A stretch of DNA of 64,000 nucleotides from Janibacter sp. HTCC2649 (GTDB taxonomy: Bacteria > Actinomycetota > Actinomycetes > Actinomycetales > Dermatophilaceae), in assembly GCF_000152705.1 (NCBI RefSeq), contig NZ_CH672413.1:186001-250000 (forward strand). Direction: 5' to 3'. A model generated the notes under the pieces. That model was given only the letters and a program-made list of their open reading frames with translations, did no database searches and had not been told where the DNA came from. This document shows, in pieces, positions 23,415 through 44,958 of the stretch; within the stretch, counting starts at the first letter, position 1, and each line of letters starts with the position of its first letter. The position numbers and the translations under genes were made by a program.

Positions 23415-23436
23415 CTTCAGCGAACCTTCACGGGAA
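23415..23436 (+). promoter_or_regulatory. Predicted response-regulator box upstream of small secreted peptide
   Basis: CTTCAGCGAAC is followed directly by CTTCACGGGAA, a direct repeat of CTTCA in an 11-bp phase. The same phase and orientation recur before four other copper genes in the island. The downstream gene is the secreted peptide at 23609. Confidence 0.6.
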
Positions 23437-23608
23437 ATGCGACTGTGCAACGCGGGTCCGGCGAGGAGGGTTGTGTCATCGAACCCGACACCAAGCGTCA
23501 CCCATTGTGGGTACGACGAACCTTGTATCAAGGGTCAGCGCTTCCGGACCTCTCCGGAAACGCGGTGGCAACCAGCCACGAAACATCCACGACAAGAAGG
23601 AACGTCAC

Positions 23609-23821
23609 ATGACGCGCTTCGCACTGAGACTTGCTTCCGCAACAGCATCCGTTGCCCTCGGGGTGGTTCTGGCATCCACCTCGGCATCGGCCGCACCTTC
23701 TGACGCCGCCACGTACGGCCAGCATGTTCGAGAATGCGCCCAGTCCATGGGCTTCGACCAGACCCACAACCCCGGCATGCACCGTGGCAGCTCGATGTGG
23801 GACCCCTCCCACACCTGCTGA
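23609..23821 (+). CDS. Small secreted peptide, possible copper-induced
   Basis: Peptide of 70 aa with a clear signal peptide (MTRFALRLASATASVALGVVLASTSASA, cleavage likely after ASA) and a mature part of about 42 residues: it contains HVRECAQSMGFDQTHNPGMHRGSSMWDPSHTC, with two cysteines, four histidines and three methionines. The ATG at 23609 follows AGAAGG. A response-regulator-type direct repeat lies 170 bp upstream and no other gene intervenes. The ligands suggest metal binding outside the cell; no family was recognised. Confidence 0.7.
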   Translation: MTRFALRLASATASVALGVVLASTSASAAPSDAATYGQHVRECAQSMGFDQTHNPGMHRGSSMWDPSHTC

Positions 23822-24025
23822 CGCCCAGACACCACGAGCCGACGGTGCCGTCGCACCGTCGGCTCATGGTCGGCGCCCGCTCCCCGAAGGCGGCGGGCGA
23901 TGAACGCGGTCGGGTCGCCCGAAGATCCAGGCCGCGACGACCTGATCGTGCTCCGTCGGCCAGCACGCGTAGGAACGGCCAGACCAGGTAGCCAAGCAGG
24001 AGGTGCTGGAGCTGTTCGTCCAGTC

Positions 24026-26314
24026 CTAGCGTGTGGGACTGAAGCGGCGCAGTCGCAGGCTGTTGCTGACCACGAACACGGAGCTGAACGCCATGGCAGC
24101 GCCGGCGATCAGCGGGTTGAGCAGGCCCAACGCCGCGAGAGGCAAGGCGGCCACGTTGTAGGCGAAGGCCCAGAACAGGTTGCCCTTGATCGTGCGCAGG
24201 GTGGCGCGTGCGAGCCTGATGGCGTCAGGCGCGGCCCGTAGGTCACCGCTGACCAAGGTGAGGTCCGAGGCCTCGATGGCGACGTCAGTGCCGGTCCCCA
24301 TCGCGAGTCCGAGGTCGGCTTGGGCGAGCGCGGCGGCGTCGTTCACCCCGTCGCCGACCATGGCGACCACGGCGCCTGCGTCCTGTAGGCGCTTGACGAC
24401 GTCGACCTTGTCGGCAGGGAGAACTTCGGCGATCACGTCGTCGTGATCGATGCCGACCTGCGTCGCAACTGCTCGCGCCGCCTTGGCGTTGTCACCGGTC
24501 ACGAGGATGGGGCGCAGTCCGAGGTGGCGGAGCTCGGCGATCGCCTGGGCGGAGGTGTCCTTGATGGTGTCGGAGACGACGATGACGGCGCGTACGCGGC
24601 CGTCCCAGGCGACCCACACCGGGGTGCGACCTTCATTCTCCGCTGTCTCAGCGAACGCCTCCAGCTCGCCCGGAACGTGCAGCGACCACTCGTCAGCCAG
24701 CCATGACCGTCGGCCCACCATGGCCGCGTGAGCACTGACGGTGCCGGAGACTCCGTTGCCCCCATGGTTGGTGAAGTCCTCCACCGGAGCGAAGTCGATC
24801 CCGGCGTCACTGGCGTGCCTGGCGATGGCGCGAGCGATGGGGTGCTCGGAAGCGTCCTCCAACGGACCGGCGATCGACAGGACCGTCGCGAGGTCCTCGT
24901 CGGCGGCTGGGTGAACTGCGGCGACGCCCATGTGCCCGGTGGTGACCGTGCCCGTCTTGTCGAGGACGATCGTGTCGACACGACGGGTCGACTCGAGGAT
25001 CTGGGGCCCCTTGATGAGGATGCCGAGCTGGGCGCCGCGACCGGTTCCGACGAGGAGTGCCGTAGGGGTTGCGAGGCCGAGGGCGCATGGGCAAGCAATG
25101 ATGAGCACCGCTACTGCCGCGGTGAAGGCTGCCGTGGCTGAGCTGCCCGTGATGAGCCACGCCGCGAGGGTGAGCAGCGACAGCCCGATGACGATCGGCA
25201 CGAACACGGCAGACACGCGGTCAGCGAGGCGTTGGACCTCGGCCTTGCCGTTCTGGGCGTCCTCCACGAGCCGTGCCATCTGGGCCAGCTGGGTGTCCGA
25301 GCCGACGCGTGTGGCGCGTACGACGAGTCGGCCGCCGGCGTTCACGGTGGCGCCGACCACGGGATCTCCCGGGCCTGCCTCGACGGGAACGGACTCACCG
25401 GTCAGCATGGAGGCGTCGACGGCGGACCTGCCGGACTCGACCTTGCCGTCGGTGGCGATCTTCTCGCCCGGGCGGACGACGAAACGGTCGCCAACGCTCA
25501 GCTGCGCGACCGGCATACGGACTTCGGTGGGTCCGGAGGGACCGTCGCGCAATACGGCGACGTCCTTGGCGCCCATGTCGAGCAGTGCGCGAAGTGCGGC
25601 GCCGGAGGTGCGCTTCGCACGGGCCTCGAAGTAGCGGCCGGCCACGATGAAGGTGGTGACCGCCGCCGCGACCTCGAGGTAGATGTGCGGCTCGGTTGCA
25701 CCGTCGGACCGGCTGGGCAGTAGGTCGAAGGGCATTCGCATGCCGGTCATCCCTGCGTGGGTGAAGAACAGTGCCCACAGGGACCACAGCCATGCGGCGC
25801 CGACGCCGACGGAAATCAGCGTGTCCATGGTCGCGGCGCGGTGGCGGAGGTTCGTCCAGGCTGCCCGGTGGAACGGCAGCGCGCCCCAGACGACGACGGG
25901 GGATGCGAGTGTCAGGGAGAGCCACTGCCAGTTGTCGAACTGCAGGGCCGGGATCATCGACATCAGTAGCACGGGGATAGTCAGGACCGCCGAGACGGTG
26001 AGGCGCTGTCGCCACGCGGCGGCCTCCTCGTCCTTGGTGCGCTGTGCGGCGTCCTCGACGGGTTGGCCCTGAACCGGCGGGGTGGGGAGGGCAGCGGTGT
26101 ATCCGGTGGCCTGGACGGTCGCGACCAGATCGTCAGGCTCCACGTCGGTCGTGAAGTGGACCTTCGCCTTCTCTGTCGCATAGTTCACGCTGGCGTTGAC
26201 GCCCGGCATCTTGTTGAGCTTCTTCTCGATGCGGGCCGCGCACGAGGCACAGGTCATGCCGCCGATCACGAGCTCGACCTGCCGGTCGTGCTGCTGAACG
26301 TCGTGCGTGCTCAT
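24026..26314 (-). CDS. copA: Copper-exporting P1B-type ATPase CopA
   Basis: Cu(I)-exporting ATPase of 762 aa. One N-terminal HMA domain has GMTCASC (C22, C25). The membrane site is CPC near residue 405 ([15 protein letters not shown]), the phosphorylation motif DKTGTVT near 450, SEHPIA and [26 protein letters not shown] follow, and the later helices carry the YN and MAFSS residues typical of Cu(I) pumps. The ATG at 26314 follows GGAAGGA; an in-frame ATG at 26347 lacks a good site. It is the last gene of csoR-copZ-copA. Confidence 0.95.
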
Positions 26315-26356
26315 GGTGCTGTCCTTCCCCGGGCCCGGCTGGGCCACACTGTGTCG

Positions 26357-26692
26357 TTACTCGCGGGCGAGGTGGTAGTCGCCGGCCTCGTCGAGGGCCG
26401 CAGCGACCTGCTCGTCCGTGAGAGGGGTCGTGGCGTCCACCGTCACGGTGGAGGAGCCACCGGCGACGAGGTCGACATCGACGTCGGTGACGCCGGGGAG
26501 GTCCTTCAGCTCGCTGGTGACCGCGGACACGCAGTGGCCGCAGGTCATGCCGGTGACGGCAAAGGTCTGGGTGTTCATGGTGGTCTCCCTGCTTGAAGGG
26601 GCGTTGTCGGGTGCGGACGACGTCCCGCCGCAGCACGCGCAGCCGTTCGACTGCGCCAGCGGCAGGGACATGTCAGGAGTGTTTTGCGACAT
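26357..26692 (-). CDS. copZ: HMA-domain copper chaperone (CopZ-like) with Cys-rich N-terminal extension
   Basis: Copper chaperone of 111 aa. The HMA domain has VTGMTCGHCVSAV with the Cu(I)-binding CxxC. The first 37 residues add a SNGCACCGG motif, giving three more thiols. An internal ATG at 26578 with a better ribosome binding site (GGGAGA) would give a 73-aa chaperone without the extension, so both forms may be made. It lies between csoR and copA and would deliver Cu(I) to the pump or the sensor. Confidence 0.85.
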   Translation of the reverse strand: MSQNTPDMSLPLAQSNGCACCGGTSSAPDNAPSSRETTMNTQTFAVTGMTCGHCVSAVTSELKDLPGVTDVDVDLVAGGSSTVTVDATTPLTDEQVAAALDEAGDYHLARE

Positions 26693-26721
26693 CGGGTTTC
26701 GCTTTCTGTATGGGCGTTGGG

Positions 26722-27030
26722 CTACGAGCGGACGAGTCGCGCTATCGCGGCAGAGGCCTCGTCGATCTGGCGGTCGAGGTCTGACGTGGTCCCTGCCGCT
26801 GCATGGGATATGCAGTGGCGAAGGTGGTCGTCCAGAAGGCCGAGGGCTACTGCTTTAAGCGCTTTGGTGGCCGCGGAGACCTGGGTGAGGATGTCGATAC
26901 AGTAGGTATCGGACTCCACCATCTTCTGCAGGCCGCGGACCTGACCCTCGATCCGCCGCAGCCGCCGCAACTGGTCGTCCTTGCTGTCGATGTAGCCCGG
27001 CACGACCCGGGCTGGACTCTTCTCGCTCAT
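26722..27030 (-). CDS. csoR: CsoR-type copper-sensing repressor
   Basis: Four-helix repressor of 102 aa. C44, H69 and C73 (DTYCIDILTQ and LLDDHLRHC) align with C36, H61 and C65 of the Mycobacterium tuberculosis CsoR Cu(I) site at a constant offset of eight. The ATG at 27030 has GGAGG five bases upstream. A CsoR-like dyad lies at 27061-27077 just before the gene, so it should repress the csoR-copZ-copA operon until Cu(I) binds. Confidence 0.93.
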   Translation of the reverse strand: MSEKSPARVVPGYIDSKDDQLRRLRRIEGQVRGLQKMVESDTYCIDILTQVSAATKALKAVALGLLDDHLRHCISHAAAGTTSDLDRQIDEASAAIARLVRS

Positions 27031-27057
27031 ACGCTCCTCCACCATGTCGACAGGTCC

Positions 27058-27077
27058 AACATACCCTCCAGGGGTAA
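27058..27077 (-). promoter_or_regulatory. CsoR operator with overlapping -10
   Basis: ATACCC-N5-GGGTAA (27061-27077) matches the perfect ATACCC-N5-GGGTAT at 42355 in all but one base. On the minus strand TATGTT (27063-27058) could be the -10 for csoR, so bound CsoR would block the promoter. Confidence 0.75.
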
Positions 27078-27319
27078 TATTCCGAGAGGTGCTGTGGGTG
27101 GGATTTCGCTCTTGCGTCGCGGTCGCGGGATAGCGGCCCGCATCACCGTCGTTGCTTCAAGGTCGGCGGAGCAGGGCGTGCATGTGCGGATCTTGCCCCA
27201 GTGGTGCGCCGAGCTGCTGAGACAGCTGCGGTCGGCGATCGGCGTGCTTTGGTCACGTGGCTCCTCGCCGTGTCGTGTAGCGCTCAGTCTGGTGAGGGCA
27301 ACCGAGGAGTTCGTCGGAG

Positions 27320-27341
27320 GTCCTATGAAGTTTCAGTGAAG
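27320..27341 (-). promoter_or_regulatory. Predicted response-regulator box upstream of csoR-copZ-copA
   Basis: Read on the minus strand, CTTCACTGAAA is followed directly by CTTCATAGGAC, the 11-bp-phase CTTCA repeat. It points toward csoR about 290 bp away with no gene in between, which would give copA both CsoR and two-component control. Confidence 0.55.
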
Positions 27342-27374
27342 CCCACACAGGTGTGCCGCGGCCGGCCCACCTGG

Positions 27375-28505
27375 CTACGCCCGGTCGAGGGGAAGTCGGA
27401 GTGTGAACTCGGCTCCGCCGCCGGGGCCAGGGCTGGAGGCGGACAGGCCTCCACCATGGGCTTCGACGAGCGCCTTGCTGATGGTCAGGCCGATACCGCT
27501 ACCACCGCGCACGCGGCTGCGGGCCGGGTCGGCGCGGTAGAACCGTTCGAAGACGTGGACCAGATGGTGGGCGTCGATGCCTTCGCCGTTGTCGGTCACG
27601 GTGATCTCGACCCAGTCGGGGTCGGGCTTGCGTACCGCGACTCGAACCCGTCCGCCGGGAGGCGTGTGCTGGAGCGCGTTATCGAGCAAGTTGGCGAGCA
27701 CCTGGGCCATACGGTCCGGGTCGACCAGGACGGTGCCCGTAGGCCGGGTGTCCACGTCGAGGGCGATCTGTTTTACGTCGTACGCGTTGTGTGCAGCCGC
27801 TGTTGCCGACTCGACCAGGGTGGTCGTGTCCGTGGGCACCGGTCGGAGGTCGAGCCCGCCTTCCTCCGCACGGGCGACGGCCGTGATGTCCTCGGCCAGT
27901 CGCTGGAGGCGTGTCGTGTTGCCGTGCAACACCTCAAGAGTGGCGTGGTCGAGACTGCGTATGCCGTCCTCGATCGCCTCCAAGTGGGCCTCGATGCTCC
28001 CCAGCGGGGTGCGCATCTCGTGCGCGAGGTCGGCCAGCAGGCGACGACGGGTGGTTTCTACGTCTCCGAGGCGCTGTGCGAGGTCGTTGATGGTGGTGGC
28101 GAGCTGGTCGAACTCAGCGCCTAGACCGGGGCTCGGGACCTGTGACTGGTAGTTCCCGCCAGCGATCCTGGAGGCGGAGTGGGCGACGGCGGCCGTGGAG
28201 CGCTGCACGCGCCGGGTGAAGAATGCCGTCACCCCGAGGGCGAGGAGAACGGAGGCGGTCAGTGCGACGCCCAGCGAGATGAGCAGGGCAGACCCGAACG
28301 CCTCCTCAACGTGGGCGGCCTCGCTGGGGGAGTGACCGACTCCGGCCTGTTGCAGGTGGTCATGGAAGATGCTTGGCCCGACGACGGATGCGACAAGCCA
28401 CGAGGTCACGGCGCAGGCGACCAGCACGAGGGTCTGCGCGATGAGCAAGCGCGGCGCCAAGCCGGCCCGGCCGAACCCCCGTGCCTCCCTCCGAGTTCGT
28501 GTCAT
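27375..28505 (-). CDS. Sensor histidine kinase of a copper-type two-component system
   Basis: Membrane histidine kinase of 376 aa. Two transmembrane segments (about 19-42 and 72-96) bracket a short outside loop holding IFHDHLQQAGVGHSPSEAAH, with four histidines suited to metal sensing. HAMP follows, then the H-box ADLAHEMRTPLGS with H162, N-box NLLDNALQHTPPGG, and G-boxes DNGEGID and GGSGIGLTISKAL. The start overlaps the regulator stop by 4 bp. The nearby copA, multicopper oxidase and repeated CTTCA boxes suggest Cu sensing. Confidence 0.88.
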   Translation of the reverse strand: MTRTRREARGFGRAGLAPRLLIAQTLVLVACAVTSWLVASVVGPSIFHDHLQQAGVGHSPSEAAHVEEAFGSALLISLGVALTASVLLALGVTAFFTRRVQRSTAAVAHSASRIAGGNYQSQVPSPGLGAEFDQLATTINDLAQRLGDVETTRRRLLADLAHEMRTPLGSIEAHLEAIEDGIRSLDHATLEVLHGNTTRLQRLAEDITAVARAEEGGLDLRPVPTDTTTLVESATAAAHNAYDVKQIALDVDTRPTGTVLVDPDRMAQVLANLLDNALQHTPPGGRVRVAVRKPDPDWVEITVTDNGEGIDAHHLVHVFERFYRADPARSRVRGGSGIGLTISKALVEAHGGGLSASSPGPGGGAEFTLRLPLDRA

Positions 28506-29245
28506 TCTCCCGTCCCCATTCGGTACCCAATGCCACGCACCGTCCGGATGAAGCGGGCGGCTCCAGCGTCGTCGCCGAGCTTGCGCCGCAGATGGCCGAT
28601 GTGAACGTCAACCAAATGGTCGTCGCCCACCCACGTCCCGCCCCACACCTGGTCGATGAGCTGTCGTCGGCTGAAGGCCATCCCAGGTCGCTCTGACAGG
28701 ACGGCGAGCACGTCGAACTCGGTCCGGGTCAACGACACCGGCTGATCGTCGAGCCAGACGTCGCGTCCGATGGGATCGATGGCCAGTGTCCCGAACCTGC
28801 GCAAGGTAGGGCCGTGATTCGCGCCGTCGATGGGGCGAGGACGGCGCTGCATCGCTCGAAGTCGTGCCACGAGCTCGCGCGGGCTGAACGGCTTGGTCAT
28901 GTAGTCGTCTGCGCCGACTGACAGCCCGATCAGGGTGTCGAGCTCGTCCGCCCGTGCGGTCAGCATGACCACGTAGGCGTCGGAGAAGGTGCGCAGCTGA
29001 CGGCACACCTCGATCCCGTCCTGACCCGGCAGTCCGAGGTCGAGCACCACCACGTCGGGGTCGAACCCGCGAGCCGCCTGCACGGCTGCCACGCCGTCAT
29101 GGCTCAGGCGGACCTCGTAACCCTCGTGTTCCAGGTAGTTGCCGATGAGGGTCGCCATGGGCAGGTCATCCTCGACGACCAGCGCCCGGACGCCGCGCGA
29201 CGGTGTTCGGGGGCCAAGTTTCCCGCTTGCCGTGTCGTGGACCAT
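28502..29245 (-). CDS. OmpR/PhoB-family response regulator (copper-type)
   Basis: Response regulator of 247 aa. The receiver has the acidic pair E25/D26/D27, the phosphoacceptor D69 (VVVLDLGLPG), T96 and K118. The C-terminal winged helix reads RDVWLDDQPVSLTRTEFDVLAVL through GDDHLVDVHIGHLRRKL and RTVRGIGYRM. It precedes the kinase with a 4-bp overlap. OmpR-type regulators bind direct repeats in a 10-11 bp phase, which fits the six CTTCA boxes in the island; one lies just upstream of this gene's start and may also autoregulate it. Confidence 0.92.
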   Translation of the reverse strand: MVHDTASGKLGPRTPSRGVRALVVEDDLPMATLIGNYLEHEGYEVRLSHDGVAAVQAARGFDPDVVVLDLGLPGQDGIEVCRQLRTFSDAYVVMLTARADELDTLIGLSVGADDYMTKPFSPRELVARLRAMQRRPRPIDGANHGPTLRRFGTLAIDPIGRDVWLDDQPVSLTRTEFDVLAVLSERPGMAFSRRQLIDQVWGGTWVGDDHLVDVHIGHLRRKLGDDAGAARFIRTVRGIGYRMGTGE

Positions 29246-29305
29246 CAGCCCATCGTGCAGGACGCGATCGCCCGGACCCGACCGGACTCCTCAGCCTGAG
29301 CGCTT

Positions 29306-29327
29306 CTTCAGCGAACCTTCACAGAAC
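29306..29327 (+). promoter_or_regulatory. Predicted response-regulator box for SHOCT/multicopper oxidase genes
   Basis: CTTCAGCGAAC followed directly by CTTCACAGAAC: nine of eleven positions agree between the two halves. It lies in the gap between the divergent regulator and SHOCT genes. Confidence 0.7.
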
Positions 29328-29391
29328 CGCAGCCGCGTGAACCGGGTCGCTGTTCGACAGTGGGGCATCGAGAACGAAGGAGCTGAGGACA

Positions 29392-29634
29392 ATGATGTGG
29401 AACGACGGCATGGGTTGGACGGGATGGCTGTTGATGAGCCTGACGGCCATCGCCTTCTGGGCACTGGTGGTTGTTGCTGTCGTGGCCCTTTTCAGGGGTA
29501 CCCGCAGTGATCCCCAACAGGTCCGGGACGGGAGCGACGAAGCCCGTCGCATCCTCGACCAGCGCTTCGCGCGCGGTGAGATCGACACCGACGAGTACCG
29601 CGCCCGCCAGGTCGTGCTGCGCTCGACGCACTGA
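29392..29634 (+). CDS. SHOCT-domain small membrane protein
   Basis: Protein of 80 aa with one transmembrane segment (about 10-34, after MMWNDGMGWTGW) and a C-terminal SHOCT motif (SDEARRILDQRFARGEIDTDEYRARQVVL). SHOCT proteins are small oligomerising membrane proteins often found in copper loci; their role is not established. AAGGAG precedes the ATG at 29392. It is the first gene after the response-regulator box and is followed 42 bp later by the multicopper oxidase. Confidence 0.85.
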   Translation: MMWNDGMGWTGWLLMSLTAIAFWALVVVAVVALFRGTRSDPQQVRDGSDEARRILDQRFARGEIDTDEYRARQVVLRSTH

Positions 29635-29675
29635 GACCACCGTCCGACGAAGCCACCCCTGAGGAGGCGCGGAGC

Positions 29676-31172
29676 ATGCCCGCCATCAGCAGACGTACCG
29701 TCCTGCTCGGCTCCGCTGGCGGACTGCTGACTGTCGGTGGCCTGGCAGCGTGCAGCACGTCCTCCGGGACAGCGGTCACCTCCTCGTCCAGGGCCGTCGA
29801 GACAGCCGAGCGGGGGCGGCGGGCGGCGGGCCAGCGCACCGTCACTGCGCGTCTGGCCCCGCGCCAGGCAACGTTGGACCTGGGCGGTCCCGTGGTGCGC
29901 AGCTGGGCCTATGGGGACGGTGTGCCCGGTCCGCTGCTGCGGGCCACGGCGGGGGACAGGGTGGTGGTCACGGTCGACAACGCCCTTCCCGAATCGACCA
30001 GCGTGCACTGGCATGGCGTGGCGCTGCGTAACGACATGGATGGTGTACCCGGGATGACCCAGAACCCCATAGGGGCCAACAAGCAGTTCACCTATGACTT
30101 CACCGTTCCTGACCCGGGCACGTACTTCTACCACCCGCACTCGGGAGTGCAGCTCGACCGAGGGTTGTACGGCGTACTGGTGGTGGATGACCCGGCCGAG
30201 CCCGGCGCCTATGACGCGGAATGGATCGTCGTCCTCGACGACTGGGTGGACGGCACCGGACAGACACCCGACGACGTGCTCGCCGCACTGCGGAAGGGCG
30301 GCGCGGGCGCGGGCGGTATGGACCACGGCTCCATGGGCGGGATGCCGATGGGAGGCCTGGGCGGGGACATGCAGTCACCGCTTATCGGTGGCGCCGGTGA
30401 TGTCGCCTACCCCCACTACCTCATCAACGGACGGGTACCTGCCTCTCCCGTCACCTTGAGTGCGAAGCCCGGCCAGCGCGTGCGGATCCGCATGATCAAC
30501 GCGGCGTCGGACACTGCCTTCCGGGTCGCGGTCGGTGGACATCGCCTGACAGTGACGCACAGCGACGGCTTCCCTGTGGCCACGACCGAGACGGACGCGT
30601 TGCTGGTCGGGATGGGCGAGCGCTTCGACGTCCTCGTGACTCTGGGCGATGGGACCTTTCCGCTGGTCGCATCCGCCGAGGGAAAATCCGGCCAAGGGAT
30701 GGCCCTGGTTCGCACAGCGGGCGGTGAAGCCCCCTCTCCCAACGTGAAGCCCACCGAGCTGCGCAAGCACGTCGTTCTCGGCACTCAACTGCGCGCCGCA
30801 CCCCAGGTCGCCCTGCGCTCCCGACAGGTCGATCGCAAGCACGACCTGGTCCTGGGCGGGTCAATGAGGAACTACCGGTGGACCATCAACGGAAAGACCT
30901 TCGACGACGCAGACCCGCTCGGGGTCCGGCAAGGCGAGCGGGTCAGGCTGCGGTTGCGAAACATGTCGATGATGTTTCACCCCATGCATGTCCACGGCCA
31001 CACCTTCGGACTCCGCGAGACAGGGGCACGCAAGGACACCGTGATCGTCCGGCCCATGGCGGCCGTCGAGGTCGACCTCGACGCTGACAACCCCGGGCAG
31101 TGGGCGACCCACTGCCACAACATCTACCACGCCGAGGCCGGCATGATGACGACCCTGTCCTACCGTGGCTGA
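29676..31172 (+). CDS. Multicopper oxidase (CueO/CopA-like), Tat-exported lipoprotein
   Basis: Periplasm-side cuprous oxidase of 498 aa that would convert Cu(I) to less permeable Cu(II). The N terminus has the twin-arginine start SRRTVLLGSAGG and a lipobox LAAC at about residue 26. All four copper motifs are intact: HWHG at 111-114, YHPH at 152-155, HPMHVHGH from 435, and HCHNIYHAEAGM from 479. A Met/His-rich insert (MDHGSMGGMPMGGLGGDM) near residue 215 resembles the extra copper-binding segment of CueO. It shares an operon with the SHOCT gene and the next membrane protein. Confidence 0.93.
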   Translation: MPAISRRTVLLGSAGGLLTVGGLAACSTSSGTAVTSSSRAVETAERGRRAAGQRTVTARLAPRQATLDLGGPVVRSWAYGDGVPGPLLRATAGDRVVVTVDNALPESTSVHWHGVALRNDMDGVPGMTQNPIGANKQFTYDFTVPDPGTYFYHPHSGVQLDRGLYGVLVVDDPAEPGAYDAEWIVVLDDWVDGTGQTPDDVLAALRKGGAGAGGMDHGSMGGMPMGGLGGDMQSPLIGGAGDVAYPHYLINGRVPASPVTLSAKPGQRVRIRMINAASDTAFRVAVGGHRLTVTHSDGFPVATTETDALLVGMGERFDVLVTLGDGTFPLVASAEGKSGQGMALVRTAGGEAPSPNVKPTELRKHVVLGTQLRAAPQVALRSRQVDRKHDLVLGGSMRNYRWTINGKTFDDADPLGVRQGERVRLRLRNMSMMFHPMHVHGHTFGLRETGARKDTVIVRPMAAVEVDLDADNPGQWATHCHNIYHAEAGMMTTLSYRG

Positions 31173-31539
31173 CCGGAAGCCCAGCCGCCTGGCAGCCGTC
31201 CGGGATGCCACCGGCACCGTCATCGGTTCCGTTCTCGGGCTCATCCCTCACGTCCTGCACCACGTCGGTCTGATCGCGGGTACCGCGTTCCTGACCGGAG
31301 CGGGCGGTAACGCGGCGCTCTACCTCGTAGGCCTGCTCCTGTCGATCCCGATGCTCAGGCGCATCCACCGCAGGTTCGGGTCGTGGCGTGCACCGGCGAT
31401 CGCGATCGCCGTCTTCACAGCCATGTTCCTCGTCTCGGCTCTTGTTGTAGGGCCCGCCATCAGCGCCGACAGCGCCCCGACCGATGCGCCGAGCCCTGGC
31501 CCAACGCCAACGGTGCAGCACACCGAGCACCACACGTAA
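31165..31539 (+). CDS. Small integral membrane protein downstream of multicopper oxidase
   Basis: Protein of 124 aa starting at a GTG that overlaps the oxidase by 8 bp. Three hydrophobic segments are visible and histidines sit in LIPHVLHHVG and in the final VQHTEHHT, which suggests metal contact. No family was recognised. The C-terminal half occurs again as a decayed copy at 41800-41953, so the protein was part of a duplicated copper block. Confidence 0.75.
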   Translation: MADRKPSRLAAVRDATGTVIGSVLGLIPHVLHHVGLIAGTAFLTGAGGNAALYLVGLLLSIPMLRRIHRRFGSWRAPAIAIAVFTAMFLVSALVVGPAISADSAPTDAPSPGPTPTVQHTEHHT

Positions 31540-36794: not shown

Positions 36795-37184
36795 TTAGCC
36801 GCGAACGCTGTCGAGCCAGGTGGTTGTGAAGGAGGTGAGCGCCTTGGTGTCGACGGCGCCGCAGGTGAGGGTCTTCTCTTCGGTCACGGCCATCACGGCG
36901 CTCTTCTGGTTCGACACCGGGCCTGCGACGGTGACGCCGCCGGGAACCTCGGTGATCACCGCGCGCAGTGCGTCCAGGTCGGCGGCAGAGATGTCCGGGC
37001 GGTAGAGAAACGCGACGTGACCATCGGCCAGACCGTGCCCCATGTCCGCCAAGGGCGCCTTCTCTCCGGGCTCGAAGAACTGCTTCTGGGCGTGGTCAAG
37101 CCATCGAGACGCGCAGGTCCGCGCAGAAATGGCAGGCCGGCGCAGGTAGCGACGAGATCCGCGGGGCAGCGGACTCAGGTGCAA
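36795..37184 (-). pseudogene. C-terminal fragment of a DUF3105-like protein
   Basis: The frame encodes ADMGHGLADGHVAFLYRPDISAADLDALRAV and ends TKALTSFTTTWLDSVRG, reminiscent of the DUF3105 domain (conserved His before a strand ending in YRPD). The only in-frame start is a TTG at 37184 with no ribosome binding site, and the first 30 residues look random, so an N-terminal membrane anchor has probably been lost. An internal ATG start near MGHGLADGH would give an even smaller piece. Family assignment is tentative. Confidence 0.4.
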
Positions 37185-37193
37185 GGGAGGTGT

Positions 37194-37571
37194 CTACGTC
37201 CTATGGACGGATAATTGCTCCGGTGAACCGGCAAGCCGAAGGCGACCCAGCCACAGATATGGAGTCAGGACGGGCGGGGCAAGGCGACGCACCAGCGACC
37301 GCAGACCCGCCCACGCCGCGAGGACGGGTTCCAACATCTTGCGAACAGCGCCGACCGCGACACGGCGCGTGGTGCGGACCTGCGTGCTCTCGTCCATCGC
37401 CTGAGGCGTGGGCGCGCTCGGCGAGTGATGGTGACCCGGGGTGGCTGCCCCCGCCACCGAGTGAGTCGTGGCGTGTGCACCGGCGGCGAACCCCAATGTC
37501 GCGCCGGTGGCGCACACGAGGACGATGAGCAGGCGCACCACGCGCCTGTACAGATCCTCGGCTACAACCAT
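37194..37571 (-). CDS. Small secreted or membrane-anchored hypothetical protein
   Basis: Protein of 125 aa with a signal-like N terminus (RRVVRLLIVLVCATGATLGFAAGAHA) and a short His patch (PGHHHSPSAP) in the mature part. The C-terminal half is basic. No family was recognised. It lies upstream of, and in the same direction as, the DUF3105-like fragment and the DUF418/Ggt pair. Confidence 0.5.
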   Translation of the reverse strand: MVVAEDLYRRVVRLLIVLVCATGATLGFAAGAHATTHSVAGAATPGHHHSPSAPTPQAMDESTQVRTTRRVAVGAVRKMLEPVLAAWAGLRSLVRRLAPPVLTPYLWLGRLRLAGSPEQLSVHRT

Positions 37572-37769
37572 GCAGCGAATCTTAGGCGAACCTGCGCGGA
37601 GCTCTGTGGGGGCTTGCCGCCGCCGGGCACCCCAAGGGGCGTCCGTTGACGAGCCAAGGTCACGTCAGCACGGGGTCCGCGTCGTCAAAAGGTCAAAGTC
37701 GTAGAGCTGCGCTGCCCAGGTGCCCAGAGTTTCCCCGTCCGGACAAGCCAGGCGCGAGGGCCGTAGCCT

Positions 37770-38590
37770 TCAGCTCCCGGCTTGGGCTCGGCTGTGGGCG
37801 AGGCGGTAGGAGTGGGTGCCGCTTTCGATGATGGTTCCGTTGTAGGTGAGCCGATCAACGATCGCGGCGCACAGGCGTGGGTCGGTGAAGGTGTCGGTCC
37901 ACCCGGAGAACGACTGGTTGGAGGCGATCGCGATGGAGTTCTTTTCCTCGCGTTCGGTGAGGACCTGGAAGAGGAGCTCGGCGCCGCGGCGGTCGAGTTC
38001 CATGTAGCCGAGCTCGTCGATCATCAGAAGGTCGACGCGGCCGTAGCGGGCGATGGTCTTGGCGAGCTGTTTGTCGTCGGCGGCCTCGACGAGTTCGTTC
38101 ACGAGCTTGGTGGCCAGGGGGTGTAGCGGACCCGGTACCCCTGTTCGGCTGCCGCCGTGCCGAGGGCGATGAGTAGGTGGGACTTGCCGGTGCCGGAGTC
38201 CCCGATCAGACACAACGGGTCGCCGCGCCGGATCCAGTCACCCTTGGCGAGGTCGTGCACAGTCGCGGGGTTGACGGCGGTGTTGGCGTCGAAGTCGAAG
38301 TCCCCGAGCCACTTGTCCCTGGGGAACCCGGCCGCCTTGACGCGGCGCACGGAGGAGCGGCGGTCGCGGTCATCGACCTCAGCCAGGAGCAGCTCGGCCA
38401 GGAACCCTTGGTAGGTCAACTGCTCCTTCTTCGCTACTGCCAAGGCCTCGTCGACCAGTGCCCGGATCGTGGGCAGGCGAAGCCGACGGCAGGCTTGATC
38501 GACCGCAGCGATCGCGGCTTCTTCGGTCATGCCGCGCCGACGACGCAACGTCGGACTGACCGGGGTGGCCACTGGTGTCGGGTTCATCAA
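37770..38590 (-). pseudogene. istB: IstB-type ATPase of IS21, frameshifted
   Basis: AAA+ transposition helper. The first part (38590 to about 38122) ends with Walker A IGDSGTGKSHLL, followed by EQGYRVRYT; the second part, in another frame, continues LATKLVNELVEAADD and has Walker B LLMIDELGYM and ASNQSFSGWTDTF. The join falls at a run of five G (plus strand 38117-38121), where two extra bases, or a loss of one, break the frame. Without the repair the protein stops just after Walker A. Confidence 0.88.
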
Positions 38591-40271
38591 CTGGTACTCG
38601 CTTTCACATCATCGACTCGTGGGGTGGTGGCGCCTCGTCGTGGGAGCAGCTCGTCATAGGCCGCCACGGACGGGACCGGGCGAGTGTCGGTCGGCGGGCC
38701 GGCGATCACTGCGGCCGGGTCGGTCAGGCGGCGTTGAGTGAGACTTACAACGCGTTGCTCGCGCGCATCACCTCGAGCAACGTGATGACGGTCAGAAATG
38801 GCTCCACCCACGGATGTGGTGTCGTGGGTGTGACGGCGGGCTTCGACCGCGACGACGTCCGCTGACACCGCACCGACGGTCAAAGCAGCGGTGATCCCGG
38901 CGATGACTTGTTCGTGCGTGAGGGAGCGGTGGAGCAGTAGGACGTCGACGAGCTCGCGGGTGCCATCGACGTCGCCGTTGACCTTGCGCGAGGCCGCCCA
39001 GAACGCTTCATGTGCCGCGGTGAAGACACCGGCTGCACGGGCCTGCACCAAGGCGGTCGACCCGGGCAAGGCTCCGGGTTTGAACCGCAATACCTCTAGG
39101 TAGTGATCCAGGACGACCCGGCTCGTGCCCCGCGTCACGCAGCGTGAGTGCACCGCCACCACGGCCCGGCCTTCGAAGACGATCACCTCGGTCGCGCGGA
39201 GGGAGACGCGGACGCGGCGGCCGATCAGGTGCGCTGGGACGGAGTACTTCACCATCCGCACGCTGATCATCGAGGACCTGTCGACGCGCGGGTTGAGCAC
39301 CAGTCCGGGTTCGAACACCTCGGTCGGCAGCAGTCGCAGGAGTGGTTGTTCGGCGGTGAAGTCGTGCCTGATCGTGTGGAGGTGTCCGCTGATGCGCCGG
39401 TCCTCGTCGTCGGCTTCCCACGTTTTGATCTGCTCGTTGAGCTGATCGAGGGAGTCGACCTCGGGCATGGGGACCAGGTGGTTGCGGCGGAACCAACCGA
39501 CCGCACCTTCGACGCCACCCTTCTCGTGGGCGCCCCTCGATCCCGGACTGGCAGTAGAACGCGTCGAAGCCGTAATGCGACCGGAACAGCACCCACCGGT
39601 CGTTCTCGTCCCTGGCCCGGCCGGGGCCGTGGACGACGGCAGTAACCGCGGAGGTGAGGTTGTCGTACTTGATGTGCTTCGTGGGGATCCCACCGATCGC
39701 GTCGAACGCCTCGATGTGCCCCTGGAGGAACGCTTCCTGCGCCTGGGTCGGGTACACCCGGTGGATCGCCTTCCCCGAGTGAGAGAGCCACAGCACGAAC
39801 ATGTAGCACTTGGTCCTCACCCCGCCCAAGGACAACCCAAACCTCACCGAAGTCGACCTCGGCCTCCTCACCCGGGCCGTGCTGCTGGGCGATGAACGCC
39901 TCAACCCGACGGCCACCCTCAAGGTCAACCTGCGCCCGCCGCACCCGCACGTAGTCCCGCACCATCGAATACGACAGCCCGGTCGCGCCGTGTTCGTCGA
40001 CCAGACGGGCCCGGATCCGGGTCGCGGTGTGTCGCTGCTTCCGCGGTGCGTCCAAGTCAGCGCGCAGCATCCCGTCGATGACGTCCTTGAACGGGTCCAA
40101 CCGCGGCGACGACCTCGTGGGTGCTTTCCGAGGCGGTGGCTCAGCTACTGCCAGCGCTTGACGGACGGTGCGCCGGTGCACCCCATGACGGCGTGCCAAC
40201 TCGCGGATCGAGACCTCCTCGACCCGCGCGTCCCGACGTATCGCAGCGAACAACTCCACACGTGATCCCAT
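38587..40271 (-). pseudogene. istA: IstA-type transposase of IS21, two frameshifts
   Basis: DDE transposase. Segment one (from 40271) has the helix-turn-helix VSIRELARRHGVHRRTVRQAL and reaches EVDFGEVW. Segment two continues GGVRTKCYMFVLWLSHSGKA and runs to YDNL, the second catalytic aspartate region. Segment three begins GAHEKGGVEGAVGWFRRN with the catalytic glutamate. Frame breaks lie near 39820-39827 and 39533-39536, each looking like one extra base in a short C run. The C terminus is intact. Confidence 0.88.
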
Positions 40272-40316
40272 CCCAACCCCGATCCCTCGAGTGCTCTGAT
40301 GAGAGCAAGGCTGAGG

Positions 40317-40411
40317 TGGGGCCAGATCAAACCGTCACAACCACCCCGGCGCGTCGCCAGTGGGGCCTGATCAGACCGTCACGGTGGGGCCAAAACAACC
40401 TGTCAGAGTCA
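40317..40411 (+). repeat. IS21-type terminal repeat (istA side)
   Basis: Contains GGGGCCAGATCAAACCGTCAC, then GGGGCCTGATCAGACCGTCA, then GGGGCCAAAACAACC, and ends GTCAGAGTCA at 40411. Multiple internal transposase-binding repeats are typical of IS21 ends. Confidence 0.75.
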
Positions 40412-40466
40412 CCGCCCATCGAAAGCGACCCGGAGCCCCTCATGAGCAACGCAGCGTTCACGGCAC

Positions 40467-41624
40467 ATGGCACATGGCACACCGGCGGGCCGTATCGCGC
40501 GAAGTTATTGGAGCTGGCGCCTTGTCGTTCCTCTGGTGGCAGCGGCCGGAATGGCTGTGGGCGTGCTTGTCGTCTTCGTTGGGAGCGGAGACCGCGAGCC
40601 GATGGCGGGGTCCTCCGGAGTCAGCGGCGTTGCGTCGGCCCACCTGGGGATGGTCGCGGGGACGGTGTGGGTCGCGAACGAGGACGGTGCGAGCCTGAGC
40701 GCCATTGACACGGCCAGCAACACAGTGGCTACGACGGTCGAAGGCGTGAAGGGGCCGCATAACGTGCAGGTTTCGCCGAACGGCAAGAGTCTCTGGGCGG
40801 TCAGTGGTCATGATTCGCTTGCGGTGATGTTCGACGCATCGTCCCTGCAACTTCATGGTGTTGCGGCAACCGGCGGGGCGCCCGCGCACGTCGTCCTCAC
40901 CCCCGACGGCCGAACGACCTACACGACCAACGGCGCCGACAGCACCGTGACAGCAATCGACTCCGTGACGATGGCCCCTATGGCGGAGATTCCGGTGGGG
41001 GCCGGGCCGCACGGGTTGCGTCCCAGCCGTGTGGTCGTCGCGAACGTCGCAGGGAGCACCCTCACTTTCATGGACACCGCGAGCAACACCAAGGTCGCGG
41101 ACGTCGAGGTCGGAAAGGCGCCGGTCCAGGTGGCCTTCTCGCCGGATGGCGCTTTCGTTTATACGTCGGTCAGCGGCGAGGGCGCCGTGGTGAAGGTCGA
41201 TGTCGCGACCCTCAGGGTGCTGGGCCGGGTGGCTGTGGGGGATGGGCCGATCCAGACCTTCGCGACTGCGGATGACCGGTACCTCTTGGTTGCCAATCAA
41301 GGGCGAGAGGACCGGCCAGGCACGACGGTGTCGGTCATCGACACCAAGACGTTTACGGTGGTCCGAACGGTGGAGACCGGTCAAGGCGCCCACGGGATCG
41401 TCGTGGACCCCACGAGCCGGCACGCCTACATCACGAACCTGTACGGCGACGATGTCGCCGTCATCGACCTCGGGGAACTGCGCGTGGTGGCTCGCATCCC
41501 TATGGGGGATAAGCCGAACGGAATCAGCTTCTCGTCGGTCACCGTGCCCGCCCAGGAGGCAGTCATGCGCGACGTGCCTGCCCCACATGGCGGAGCCGAG
41601 CCGAACGCGCACATGGCTCACTAA
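40467..41624 (+). CDS. YVTN-type beta-propeller protein, membrane anchored
   Basis: Protein of 385 aa with an N-terminal anchor (SWRLVVPLVAAAGMAVGVLVVFVG) and about seven propeller repeats of the YVTN/YncE kind, such as ANEDGASLSAIDTASNTV, QVSPNGKSLWAV and VTNLYGDD-like strands. YncE-type proteins bind DNA or metals in other bacteria; here the role is unknown. It ends in a His/Met-rich tail (HGGAEPNAHMAH), which fits its copper-gene surroundings. The start is only 56 bp from the IS21 tip, so the native promoter may have been replaced. Confidence 0.8.
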   Translation: MAHGTPAGRIARSYWSWRLVVPLVAAAGMAVGVLVVFVGSGDREPMAGSSGVSGVASAHLGMVAGTVWVANEDGASLSAIDTASNTVATTVEGVKGPHNVQVSPNGKSLWAVSGHDSLAVMFDASSLQLHGVAATGGAPAHVVLTPDGRTTYTTNGADSTVTAIDSVTMAPMAEIPVGAGPHGLRPSRVVVANVAGSTLTFMDTASNTKVADVEVGKAPVQVAFSPDGAFVYTSVSGEGAVVKVDVATLRVLGRVAVGDGPIQTFATADDRYLLVANQGREDRPGTTVSVIDTKTFTVVRTVETGQGAHGIVVDPTSRHAYITNLYGDDVAVIDLGELRVVARIPMGDKPNGISFSSVTVPAQEAVMRDVPAPHGGAEPNAHMAH

Positions 41625-41639
41625 TTGAGCGGAGTGGAT

Positions 41640-42346
41640 GAGCATGAGGGTCTCACTTGTCTCCAATGTTCTTTCTCGGCGCCAGGAGCTCCGGCGGCGC
41701 GAGTCATGGATCCGCCGCGGGCTGCTGGTCCACCATCAGCGATCGCCGGGTCCGCTCCGAGCTTCCCTTCCAAGCCGTCGCCGTAGGTTTCCGGGAGTGG
41801 GGTGCACCGGCCATCGCGATAGCCGTCTTCACAAACATCTTCCGCAATTCGGCTCTTGTCATGGGGCCAGCCGTCAGGGCAGACGGCGCCCCGACAGATG
41901 CGCCGAGCCCTGGCGCAACCTCAACGGTGCAGCACGCCGAGCACCACGCGTAGAGCCTTCAGCAAACCTTCATGGTGGCCCTCCTGCTACCTCCACTTCG
42001 GTGGATCACGGTGGACATGGAAAGAAGGGAAGGACGATATGGACATTGAAGGACCTTCTGGGAACCCCACCCCAGACCGCGCCCGGGCCAGTGGCAGGAC
42101 GACACACCTACGAAGACGACATCCAATTTTCTGATTGGCGGTCCTGACGGCCAGCCGGCAGGCAAGTCCCACAGTGATGACGAGGGCCACGCTCAGATGC
42201 TTCTGGCTTGCTCCATGCTGATGCTGTTCATCGCGTTTGCGCTCGTGGGAACAGGTGTGTGGAGCTCGGCTGCCATCGCGTATGCGCTCTTGGGCGTGGG
42301 TTTGATGGCCGCGGTGCTGCTGCCCGTGCCCTGGCGCCGGTACTAA
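41640..42346 (+). pseudogene. Decayed duplicate of the 31.4-32.2 kb copper block
   Basis: From about 41795 the DNA follows 31380-32165 closely. It holds in order: the last third of the 124-aa membrane protein (to 41953), a response-regulator box, a DUF2892 start (ATG 42039, MDIEGPSGNPTPD) that soon shifts frame and ends at 42134, and the C-terminal half of the His-rich membrane protein (42188-42346, LMLFIAFALVGTG to WRRY). None of the three genes is complete. The block leads directly into a CsoR site and the CPD-type ATPase. Confidence 0.75.
41957..41978 (+). promoter_or_regulatory. Response-regulator box in decayed block, second half degenerate
   Basis: CTTCAGCAAAC is followed by CTTCATGGTGG. 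The first half is identical to the box at 31543; the second keeps only CTTCA. Confidence 0.5.
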
Positions 42347-42354
42347 CCTGAGAA

Positions 42355-42371
42355 ATACCCTGTGGGGGTAT
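42355..42371 (+). promoter_or_regulatory. CsoR operator upstream of the CPD-type ATPase
   Basis: ATACCC-N5-GGGTAT, a perfect 6-bp dyad with the spacing seen before csoR. It lies 52 bp upstream of the chosen ATPase start and overlaps the longer ORF start at 42370, which argues against that longer start. Confidence 0.8.
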
Positions 42372-42423
42372 GCTGTTGTCGTGCATGACGTTAGTTCGAG
42401 CCGACCTACGGAGATGCGTTGTC

Positions 42424-44886
42424 ATGAGTCAGAGGACCGTCCTACAGCTGGGGGGCCTGCACTGGGCCACCTCCGCTCGCGCCATCGAGTCCACGCTGAC
42501 TCGTCGGCACGGCGTTGAGGCCGTCGAGGCCAACGCCGCGAACCAGACCGCCACCGTGACCTACGACCCCGGGGTCACGTCAGTGTCGGAGCTCGCGGGG
42601 TGGGTTCGCGACTGCGGCTATCACTGCTCGGGTCGGTCGGTGCCGGACCACCTTTGCGAGCCGATGGGGGAGCCTGCAACGGGCCACGCGGCCCTCCGGA
42701 ACGGTCATGGCTCCACGGCGCTCCACGAAGACGCTGCGGTGGTCGACAGCCACGAGGCTCACGCCCGGCATGCCCTGCCCGCAGATGGTGGGCCCAGCAC
42801 TCACTCGTCGCACGAGATGATGGGCCACGGTGGGCACGCCGGGATGTCGATGGCTGACATGGCCCGAGACATGCGCAACCGGTTCCTTGTCGCCCTGGTG
42901 CTCACCGCCGGGATCACGTTGTGGTCGCCCATGGGTCGGGACATGCTCGGCTTCGAGGCGCCGACTCCGTTCGGGCTGCGCGACGACGTGTTCGCCCTGC
43001 TCCTCAGCCTGCCGGTCGTCTTCTACTCCGCATGGATCTTCTTCGACGGTGCCTGGCGGGCGCTGCGCAACCGCACGCTCGACATGATGGTGCTGGTCGC
43101 CGTGGCCGTCAGCGCGGGCTGGCTCTACAGCGTCGGCGTCACCGTCACGGGCGGCGGCGAGGTCTTCTACGAGGCCGCCGCGATGCTGACCACGTTCGTG
43201 CTGCTCGGGCACTGGTTCGAGATGCGTGCGCGCGGGGGTGCCAACGACGCGATCCGCGCCCTCCTGGACCTGGCACCGCCCCGGGCCATCGTCCTTCGCG
43301 GCGGCGAGGAGGTGGAGATCCCCACCGCCGACGTGGTCGTGGGCGACCTCGTGCTCATCCGACCCGGCAGCAAGGTGCCCGTGGACGGCATCGTCGAGGA
43401 CGGCATCTCCGAGATCGACGAGTCGATGGTCACCGGCGAGAGCATGCCCGTGGGCAAGACACCCGGCTCCGAGGTGATCGGCGCCTCGATCAACACCACG
43501 GGCACGCTCCGGGTCCGGGCCACCAAGGTCGGCTCCGACACGGCGCTCGCACAGATCGTCCACCTGGTGCAGGAGGCCCAGAACTCCAAGGCCCCCGGAC
43601 AGCGGCTCGCCGACCGCGCCGCGTTGTGGCTCGTCCTCGTCGCGCTCATCGGCGGCGTCGGGACCTTCCTCGTGTGGCTGGCTGTCGGCGCCAGCGTGCA
43701 GGTCGCCCTTCTCTTCGCCATCACGGTCGTGGTCATCACCTGCCCCGACGCCCTCGGCCTGGCCACCCCGACCGCGATCATGGTCGGGACCGGGCTGGGC
43801 GCCCGACGCGGAGTGCTGTTCAAGACCGCCACCGCGCTGGAGTCCGCTGCCCGCATCGACACCGTCGTCCTCGACAAGACCGGCACCCTCACCAAGGGCG
43901 AGCCCGAGGTCACCGACGTCGTGGTCGCCGACGGCACGGACGAGGACGAGCTGCTGCGCCTGGTCAGCGCCGTCGAGCGCGAGTCCGAGCACCCCCTCGC
44001 CGGCGCCATCGTCGCGTATGCCGTGCAGCGCGGCATCTCTCCGCCCGTCACCTCGGGCTTCCGCAACGTCCCCGGACACGGGGCCGTGGCAGACGTCGAC
44101 GGTCACCGCGTCGTCGTGGGCAACCGCAAGCTCATGGTGCAGGAGGGCATCGACGTCGGCCCACTGCTCGCTCGTCGCGAGGAGCTCGCGGCCAGTGGGC
44201 GCACCGCGGTGCTCGTCGGCGTGGACGGGCGCGGAGCCGGAGTCATCGCCCTGGCCGACGCGGTCCGCGAGACCTCCGAGCAGGCCATCCGTGAGCTGCA
44301 CGAGCTCGGCACCGAGGTCGTCATGCTCAGTGGCGACAACCAGGCCACGGCCGAACGCATCGCCCGCCAGCTCGGGATCGACACGGTGATCGCCGAGGTG
44401 CTCCCGGGTGACAAGGCCGCGAAGGTCGCCGAGCTGCAGGCACAGGGCAGGAGGGTCGCGATGGTGGGCGACGGCGTCAACGACGCACCTGCCCTGGCCC
44501 AGGCGGACCTCGGCATCGCGATCGGGGCCGGCACGGACGTCGCCATCGAGACGGCCGACCTCGTGCTCATGCGTTCGGACCCGCTGGACGTGCCGATCGC
44601 GCTGCGAGTCGGCCGGGGGACGCTGCGCAAGATGCGCCAGAACCTCGGGTGGGCCGTCGGCTACAACGTTATCGCGCTGCCCATCGCGGCCGGAGTCTTC
44701 GAACCCTCACTGGGCCTCGTGCTGCGGCCCGAGGCCGCAGCCCTGTCGATGTCCGGGTCTAGTGTCATCGTCGCCGTCAACGCCCTGATGCTCAAGCGGC
44801 TCCGGCTCCCCGCCCCACCACAGACAGTCGAGGGCACCAAGCCCACGCAACGTGCAGCCGAACCCGCAGCGCACCGCGGCGGCTGA
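42424..44886 (+). CDS. P1B-type ATPase with CPD membrane motif and degenerate HMA domain
   Basis: Metal-transporting P-type ATPase of 820 aa. The N-terminal domain has the HMA fold pattern (VLQLGGLHWATSARAIESTL to GYHC) but no CxxC in the metal loop. A His/Met-rich linker follows (SSHEMMGHGGHAGMSMADMARDM). The membrane motif is CPD at residues 440-442 ([16 protein letters not shown]), not CPC or CPH. Phosphorylation D484 (DKTGTLTKGE), SEHPLA and GDGVNDAPAL are intact, and the last helices have YNVIALPIAAG and MSGSSVIVAVNA. The His-rich linker and CsoR site suggest copper or silver. Confidence 0.9.
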   Translation: MSQRTVLQLGGLHWATSARAIESTLTRRHGVEAVEANAANQTATVTYDPGVTSVSELAGWVRDCGYHCSGRSVPDHLCEPMGEPATGHAALRNGHGSTALHEDAAVVDSHEAHARHALPADGGPSTHSSHEMMGHGGHAGMSMADMARDMRNRFLVALVLTAGITLWSPMGRDMLGFEAPTPFGLRDDVFALLLSLPVVFYSAWIFFDGAWRALRNRTLDMMVLVAVAVSAGWLYSVGVTVTGGGEVFYEAAAMLTTFVLLGHWFEMRARGGANDAIRALLDLAPPRAIVLRGGEEVEIPTADVVVGDLVLIRPGSKVPVDGIVEDGISEIDESMVTGESMPVGKTPGSEVIGASINTTGTLRVRATKVGSDTALAQIVHLVQEAQNSKAPGQRLADRAALWLVLVALIGGVGTFLVWLAVGASVQVALLFAITVVVITCPDALGLATPTAIMVGTGLGARRGVLFKTATALESAARIDTVVLDKTGTLTKGEPEVTDVVVADGTDEDELLRLVSAVERESEHPLAGAIVAYAVQRGISPPVTSGFRNVPGHGAVADVDGHRVVVGNRKLMVQEGIDVGPLLARREELAASGRTAVLVGVDGRGAGVIALADAVRETSEQAIRELHELGTEVVMLSGDNQATAERIARQLGIDTVIAEVLPGDKAAKVAELQAQGRRVAMVGDGVNDAPALAQADLGIAIGAGTDVAIETADLVLMRSDPLDVPIALRVGRGTLRKMRQNLGWAVGYNVIALPIAAGVFEPSLGLVLRPEAAALSMSGSSVIVAVNALMLKRLRLPAPPQTVEGTKPTQRAAEPAAHRGG

Positions 44887-44936
44887 CGCGAATCCCGACC
44901 AGTCGCCATAGGGCCGATCAGCCGGTTCAAGCCCAT

Positions 44937-44958
44937 CTTCATCAAACCTTCAGCAAAT
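44937..44958 (+). promoter_or_regulatory. Predicted response-regulator box for the DUF305 operon
   Basis: CTTCATCAAAC followed directly by CTTCAGCAAAT, the best-matched pair of the six boxes (nine of eleven positions). The DUF305 gene starts 116 bp downstream. Confidence 0.7.

Follow-up and report, generated by a model that had tools for sequence, protein, structure and literature searches.

The window analysed here, a stretch of 64,000 bp of the genome of Janibacter sp. HTCC2649 (contig NZ_CH672413.1, positions 186,001 to 250,000), contains an island of copper-type genes with six copies of a direct repeat, CTTCA-N6-CTTCA (CopR box). The sequence evidence suggests, with a probability of about 0.9, that these six sites are the operators-plus-promoters of a copper regulon, which would be run by the two-component system CopRS encoded at 27375-29245. 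Its regulator (28502-29245) carries Response_reg (1.2e-26) and Trans_reg_C (2.5e-26) domains, and the kinase adjoining copR has HAMP, HisKA and HATPase_c matches.

A preliminary description of this DNA had listed paired 11-mers at 23415 (+), 27341-27320 (-), 29306 (+), 31543 (+), 41957 (+) and 44937 (+); all six were confirmed, each facing a copper-type gene or the remnant of one. Its count of four well-matched pairs was generous: a comparison by eye of the two halves of each pair gives 9/11 identical bases at 29306 and 44937, 8/11 at 31543, 7/11 at 27341 and 23415, and 5/11 at 41957.

The exact pattern CTTCA-N6-CTTCA occurs six times in the window, versus a mean of 0.02 in shuffled sequence, and none of 100 shuffles reached six. 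With mismatches allowed, the window has no further site at one mismatch and 18 at two, and the summed 24 are at chance level. The genome (4,235,068 bases) contains eight exact copies, versus two for the pattern read backward; the two outside the window, at 2773876 and 2986005, are both within long reading frames, which we take from our own reading of the translations to be DUF58-like and glycosyl-hydrolase-like, respectively. A stricter consensus, CTTCANCRAAYCTTCA, is exact at five of the six boxes and nowhere else in the genome, and with up to two mismatches it yields 16 matches genome-wide (backward control, three), including two sites with one mismatch and eight with two outside the window. 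The possibility that many unrelated genes score similarly, raised beforehand as the outcome that would speak against the regulon, was thus checked genome-wide by consensus and mismatches, not by a full matrix, and the five exact strict matches all lie in the window. In a matrix scan of the window, with five of the six sites in the training set, the boxes scored 23 to 38 bits and the next-best site 10.8. Reading of the frames by eye, with no profile search, revealed no recognisable copper gene near 11 own-genome sites outside the window (the ten strict-consensus near-matches and the loose-exact site at 2773876).

Probable promoter spacing and distribution of the box

Boxes from the window, from 10 loci in named records and from 38 further loci were aligned, excluding L198 and L199 (genomes without CopR). 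In the pattern used, box position 8 had to be a purine; sites lying too close to a locus end were dropped, and a filter at 80% identity reduced 97 sites to 79, removing window box 41957 as a duplicate. The consensus of the 79 non-redundant boxes is [A/T]TCTTCA[G/T]C[G/A]AA[C/T]CTTCAT, and this alignment contains no third in-phase half-site. Two extra columns are conserved, an A at 52 and a T at 56 from the first C, and they are read as the second and sixth bases of a hexamer, NANNNT, which we interpret from the general features of bacterial promoters as a -10 element. NANNNT is found at offset 51 +/-1 in 67 of the 79 boxes (other offsets: mean 4.5, maximum 9) and in all six window boxes (offset 51 in four, 50 in one, 52 in one); no -35 consensus was recognised in the alignment. 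The hexamer is also present in three of the 11 off-window sites (offset 50-52) and, among boxes outside the alignment, in six of nine degenerate boxes and in 25 of 27 later-fetched strict boxes from CopR-bearing genomes, versus one of seven from CopR-lacking genomes. The later-fetched set comprised 35 stretches with 34 distinct boxes, the class match G431:C60, near a contig end, not being included; the seven CopR-lacking boxes are five from the class sample and two near-identical ones from the family (G022, G069). Because the box comes with a near-fixed -10, every copy is probably the signature of an entire CopR promoter, in which it would cover about -62 to -41 of the predicted start. This association is new here, and as a rule it would allow CopR targets to be read from sequence.

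The distribution of the box was determined in 149 genomes of the family and 296 genomes of the class (six in both). CopR orthology was assigned by E-value cut-offs, with no tree, and absences of CopR are approximate because only the best 18 first-look candidates per family genome (9 per class genome) were scored. For the loose box, 77 matches versus nine of the backward control were obtained in the 21 family genomes whose CopR is closest, 78 versus 37 in 53 genomes with a weaker CopR, and 72 versus 64 in 75 genomes without CopR. The strict box yielded 60 matches in 25 of the 149 family genomes and none backward; it occurs in 15 of the 53 genera sampled, and in 23 of 74 genomes with CopR versus 2 of 75 without. 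At class level 21 of 296 genomes have it, comprising 16 of 38 with CopR versus five of 258 others (backward control, one). Fisher p values are 1.6e-6 (family) and 2.8e-12 (class), own genome included and kinship uncorrected; the strict consensus was fixed after the family matches had been seen, so that the strict test was not blind in the family and was blind in the class. The control of the sites by the regulator at 28502-29245, proposed beforehand, is thus supported at the level of sequence, in that the strict box tracks its close homologue in both samples. In named records, boxes occur in Nocardioides, Actinotalea, Kineosporia, a Nanopelagicales and an Actinomycetes bin, and plasmids of Rhodococcus and Corynebacterium.

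The surroundings of the foreign boxes (55, i.e. all strict boxes of the family search outside the own genome) are also those of a copper island: for 50, the aligned start of an island-protein homologue is no more than 1.2 kb away, most often that of SHOCT/copR or DUF305, and these include one box with only an ArsR homologue and one with only a YNCE-type homologue. Of the remaining five, one stands where its contig ends, one adjoins the copS end, one is 0.8 kb away from a cation-efflux gene, and two are in genomes that lack CopR. In these context searches the secreted-peptide reference began 33 bases before its ATG, and the first residues of references were written as M. Nine of 16 copR homologues with no exact upstream box have a degenerate box above 14 bits; upstream of 66 more distant homologues the best site scored 13.1 bits and none exceeded 14 (two more had too little upstream DNA). 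Back-to-back pairs of strict boxes, about 20 bp apart, in opposite directions and each with its own -10, were observed in L242, L243 and L245-L248 (G149:C9:76397-76448; G292:C6 and C108).

For copR itself, a candidate start codon follows the end of a NANNNT at a gap of 5 to 7 nt in all 20 non-redundant loci with a box between copR and a divergent gene (gap of 6 in 14 loci, 7 in five, 5 in one). In 15 loci the first candidate codon is the one that matches, in five the second, and in 19 of the 20 our pattern for a purine-rich ribosome site has no match before it. As a control, the same signature was found at 16 of 88 other annotated starts of five plasmid loci, where one start per gene was used, versus up to four for copR. 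The simplest reading of this signature, present in 20 of 20 loci, is that the copR mRNA is probably leaderless.

From these elements we infer binding by the CopR of the window, copper as the signal, and the transcription starts. CopS would sense extracytoplasmic copper, perhaps via a histidine motif, and would phosphorylate CopR, a dimer of which would bind the two CTTCA half-sites head to tail. Bound CopR would recruit RNA polymerase to the -10 about 50 bp past the first box base, with no recognisable -35, and would thereby activate the genes for the secreted peptide, csoR-copZ-copA, SHOCT-multicopper oxidase, the DUF2892 pair, copB, and DUF305 with the gene downstream of it. Box 29306 would also serve copRS in reverse, at -82 to -61 of the leaderless copR mRNA.

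Genes of the copper island

Box 1 (23415-23436, +), with a -10-like GAGGGT at 23466-23471 and a predicted start at about 23478, lies upstream of a gene for a secreted peptide of 70 amino acids (23609-23821, +; ATG at 23609), and box and gene are also found together in locus L157. The peptide has no Pfam match; its conserved C-terminal half contains His, Met and Cys, and the pattern GQHV..C.Q(S/T)MGFD..NPGMH.G.S.W.P...C is kept at five other places in four genomes. Possibly the peptide represents a new copper-binding family.

The genes csoR (metal-sensitive repressor; 26722-27045, -; PF02583, Trns_repr_metal, 3.6e-29; likely start, in our reading, at 27030 after GGAGGAG), copZ (HMA protein, copZ-like; 26357-26692, -) and copA (Cu-type P-type ATPase with an HMA domain; 24026-26347, -) appear to have two copper inputs. 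Box 2 (27320-27341, -; -10-like CAGACT at 27291-27286; predicted start at about 27279) would be the upstream promoter. Next to csoR, a second -10-like element, TATGTT (27058-27063), is overlapped by the palindrome TACCCCTGGAGGGTA (27062-27076, -), which we take to be a CsoR-type operator from the consensus TACCC...GGGTA. This pattern was found in six of seven aligned csoR upstream regions, the window included, L167 having a near match. The operon is thus a candidate for a CopR promoter far upstream combined with a CsoR-repressed promoter next to csoR. Since it has both an upstream CopR box and a CsoR operator, external and internal copper could both act on it, and the arrangement allows a direct test of how sensing of external copper (CopRS) relates to that of internal copper (CsoR).

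The copS gene (27375-28505, -) encodes a HAMP histidine kinase with an extracytoplasmic loop FHDH...HVEEAF, whose histidine-motif residues are candidate copper ligands. It shares the loop pattern FH.H(L/M)...H.E(E/Q)A(F/Y) with the CopS proteins of pLEW279b and Corynebacterium marinum. The OmpR/PhoB-type regulator gene copR (28502-29245, -) has a -10-like CACGAT at 29257-29252 and a predicted leaderless mRNA from 29245. Box 3 (29306-29327, +) lies in the divergent region between copR and a gene for a SHOCT-like small protein (29392-29634, +), with a forward -10-like GACAGT at 29356-29361 and a predicted start at about 29368. The Pfam match of the SHOCT-like protein is below the cut-off, and the gene is at the same place in relatives. 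It is followed by genes for a multicopper oxidase (29676-31172, +) and for a membrane-type protein of 124 amino acids (TM124; 31165-31539, +; no Pfam match).

Box 4 (31543-31564, +; -10-like CACGGT at 31593-31598; predicted start at about 31605) precedes genes for a YgaP-like/DUF2892 membrane protein (31624-31872, +; start reassigned by us from 31597 to ATG 31624) and for a His-rich membrane-type protein of 98 amino acids (TM98; 31869-32165, +; no Pfam match). Box 5 (41957-41978, +; -10-like CACGGT at 42007-42012; predicted start at about 42019) is its duplicate: 31368-31658 and 41781-42073 are copies of one 293-bp segment, 82% identical overall and without any difference in the 16 bases of the box core or in the -10 hexamer, so that the window contains five independent sites. 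The preliminary description had placed box 5 upstream of a decayed copy of the DUF2892 pair. The decay is borne out, and the probable living target is the copB-type P-type ATPase gene with an HMA domain at 42424-44886 (+; start at ATG 42424 in our reading). The box is assigned to copB because relatives L156 and L163 have the order box-DUF2892-TM98-copB at the second position, and it probably drives this gene. In L164, the same box is followed by one open frame with a DUF2892-type beginning and a TM98-type end, a stretch that is interrupted in the window.

Box 6 (44937-44958, +; -10-like CATGCT at 44986-44991; predicted start at about 44998) precedes a gene for a DUF305 protein with a lipoprotein-like N-terminus (45074-45667, +; in our reading starting at GTG 45074, with GGAG at 45061). 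The gene that follows (45714-46586, +; no Pfam match) resembles annotated F510_1955 family glycosylhydrolases, and several relatives also have it after DUF305.

In L164, which belongs to a different genus within the family, the counterparts of window 23992-32421 and 40406-46685 directly adjoin each other, with 90-92% identity to the window; the intervening 8 kb (32422-40405; ArsR and cation efflux, IS21-type istA/istB) were therefore either inserted in the window or lost in L164. Just beyond the island there is a 34-bp tandem repeat (47132-47274; 4.2 copies, 99% matches), and an IS110-family transposase is encoded near the island end (48598-49818). Searching the window against Rfam at the gathering threshold, and for tRNA genes, gave no match.

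With these assignments, the unstudied secreted peptide, the SHOCT-like, DUF2892 and DUF305 proteins, and the membrane-type proteins of 98 and 124 amino acids would be placed in the copper response. A more speculative generalization, which taken as a whole we regard as tentative, is a portable copper-promoter cassette of actinomycetes that consists of the CopR repeat, about 28 bp and a -10 without -35, and is read by CopR alone. Such a cassette would have been added unchanged before new copper genes, kept where the first gene decays, and used in reverse, at a longer distance (box at -82 to -61), for a leaderless copR mRNA. On csoR-copZ-copA, where it stands above a CsoR operator, bound CsoR might stop transcription arriving from the CopR promoter, so that the operon would be opened only by external and internal copper together.

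Competing readings and known copper systems

Several observations weigh against a CopR regulon of six promoters. No strict box is found in 51 of the 74 family genomes with CopR, and of the 21 class genomes that have a strict box, five are without CopR at the cut-off applied. Seven of the 16 copR homologues with no exact box (L019, L020, L178, L023, L166, L027, L028) also have no degenerate box in the 350 bases upstream. The off-island site at 2986005, within a long frame, has an exact loose box with NANNNT at offset 50, and two of the eight two-mismatch off-window sites also carry NANNNT. The CopS histidine motif is not present in all homologues (absent in L019, L020, L021 and L178), and the corynebacterial copR box has no forward -10 at the spacing of the window. 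The CopR homologues of L019 and L020 (Mycolicibacterium) are 67-68% identical, with no exact box in their 20-kb loci; these regulators may recognise another sequence or act on targets further away.

The strongest alternative is that some boxes (41957, 27341) are relics and that csoR-copZ-copA is under CsoR alone. Box 27341 has two mismatches to the strict consensus and is 275 bp from csoR, the corresponding sites in L157 and L164 have one CTTCA mismatch, and the CsoR-type operator overlaps the csoR-proximal promoter; at 41957, the second half equals the first in CTTCA only and the adjoining gene is decayed. However, both boxes retain a -10 at offset 51, box 41957 is unchanged in L164, and L156 and L163 have exact boxes before csoR at the position of box 2. 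We consider this alternative rather unlikely.

Much less probable is binding of the boxes by a different regulator of the OmpR/PhoP type, e.g. the phosphate regulator PhoP, with CopR a bystander. The PHO box of Streptomyces PhoP is an 11-bp direct repeat, GTTCA-N6-GTTCA, at phosphate genes. It shares with the CopR box the 11-bp direct-repeat units and an OmpR-type dimer, the architecture class is the same, and MtrA, RegX3 and PhoP are among the solved structures closest in sequence; the window differs from it in having CTTCA and copper genes. A PhoP regulon predicts sites at phosphate genes, independent of CopR, whereas the box contexts are copper-island genes and box presence tracks CopR. Seven examined genomes without a close CopR have 4 to 10 other OmpR-type homologues each (1e-40), yet strict boxes occur in just 2 of the 75 family genomes without CopR, so that their presence follows CopR and not OmpR-type regulators generally. 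In addition, the CopR homologue of Corynebacterium glutamicum binds the box (PMC3140484). A further reading, in which the repeats are left over from a duplication or a mobile segment and have no regulatory role, might be suggested by the duplicated 293-bp segment (82% identical) shared by 31543 and 41957 and by the occurrence of the island in different genera at 90-92% identity. It is scarcely credible given the little conservation beyond box and -10 position in the non-redundant alignment.

The preferred reading, a regulon run by CopRS, is close to the system of C. glutamicum. The TGAAG-repeat box of CopRS in that species, cited in the preliminary description, is real and experimentally supported: gel shifts demonstrate binding of CopR to TGAAGATTTgaTGAAGATTT, at -59 to -78 relative to the copR start, and this binding is lost when the repeat is mutated and is enhanced by phosphorylation, while activation of the two divergent promoters depends on CopRS and on copper (PMC3140484). 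On the other strand TGAAGATTTgaTGAAGATTT reads CTTCA-TCAAAT-CTTCA, in the same frame as the window boxes and at the same place relative to copR, and exactly this core is found beside copR in pLEW279b, whose cop region is 97% similar to that of C. glutamicum (PMC3140484), and in a C. marinum plasmid. The same paper states that the copR transcript start could not be determined despite different methods, for which a leaderless copR mRNA may offer an explanation. In pLEW279b, copR has the leaderless signature at a start codon that fits the published distances (PMC3140484); the RefSeq annotation has a longer copR, starting at 688. A second CopR-type box was also observed in pLEW279b (L153:6267-6288), with TAGGGT at offset 51 and a gene annotated as a four-helix bundle copper-binding protein beginning 102 bp further on, despite the single site reported for C. 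glutamicum.

As in C. glutamicum, a response regulator and a HAMP kinase are encoded divergently from a multicopper oxidase operon (SHOCT-multicopper oxidase, 29392-31172), with a TGAAG-N6-TGAAG repeat (29306-29327) at -61 to -82 from the copR start (29245). The gene before the oxidase differs, being cg3286 in C. glutamicum (CueP-type in the C. marinum copy) and that of the SHOCT-like protein in the window, and in loci of the C. glutamicum type the distance from the box to the cg3286 start is long. An unproven frame of about 9 kDa between copR and cg3286 was considered as a SHOCT-like protein and rejected, because the corresponding gap in pLEW279b and C. marinum contains no SHOCT-like frame (blastp at 1e-4; translations read by eye).

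The csoR-copZ-copA operon resembles the M. tuberculosis csoR operon in having csoR beside a copper ATPase and a palindromic TACCC...GGGTA at the promoter, and differs from it in having an upstream CopR box too. CsoR is known as a repressor in M. tuberculosis and relatives (PMC3140484). Two-component copper sensing from a shared divergent promoter is also a feature of Escherichia coli CusRS (PMC3140484), which has a single target region, versus six boxes in the window.

A description of a multi-site CopR regulon in actinomycetes outside C. glutamicum was not found in searches of open-access literature, which is weak evidence of absence. By its sequence the system of the window is a CopRS of the C. 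glutamicum type, with every structural feature examined being present except the single box, which is not taken as defining. For the C. glutamicum genome one box is reported (PMC3140484); in the window, one gel-shift-proven site would thus be extended to a regulon of several promoters, which csoR-copZ-copA joins, and it is in size and wiring (six boxes, csoR-copZ-copA included, a box-linked -10) that the predicted regulon differs from that of C. glutamicum.

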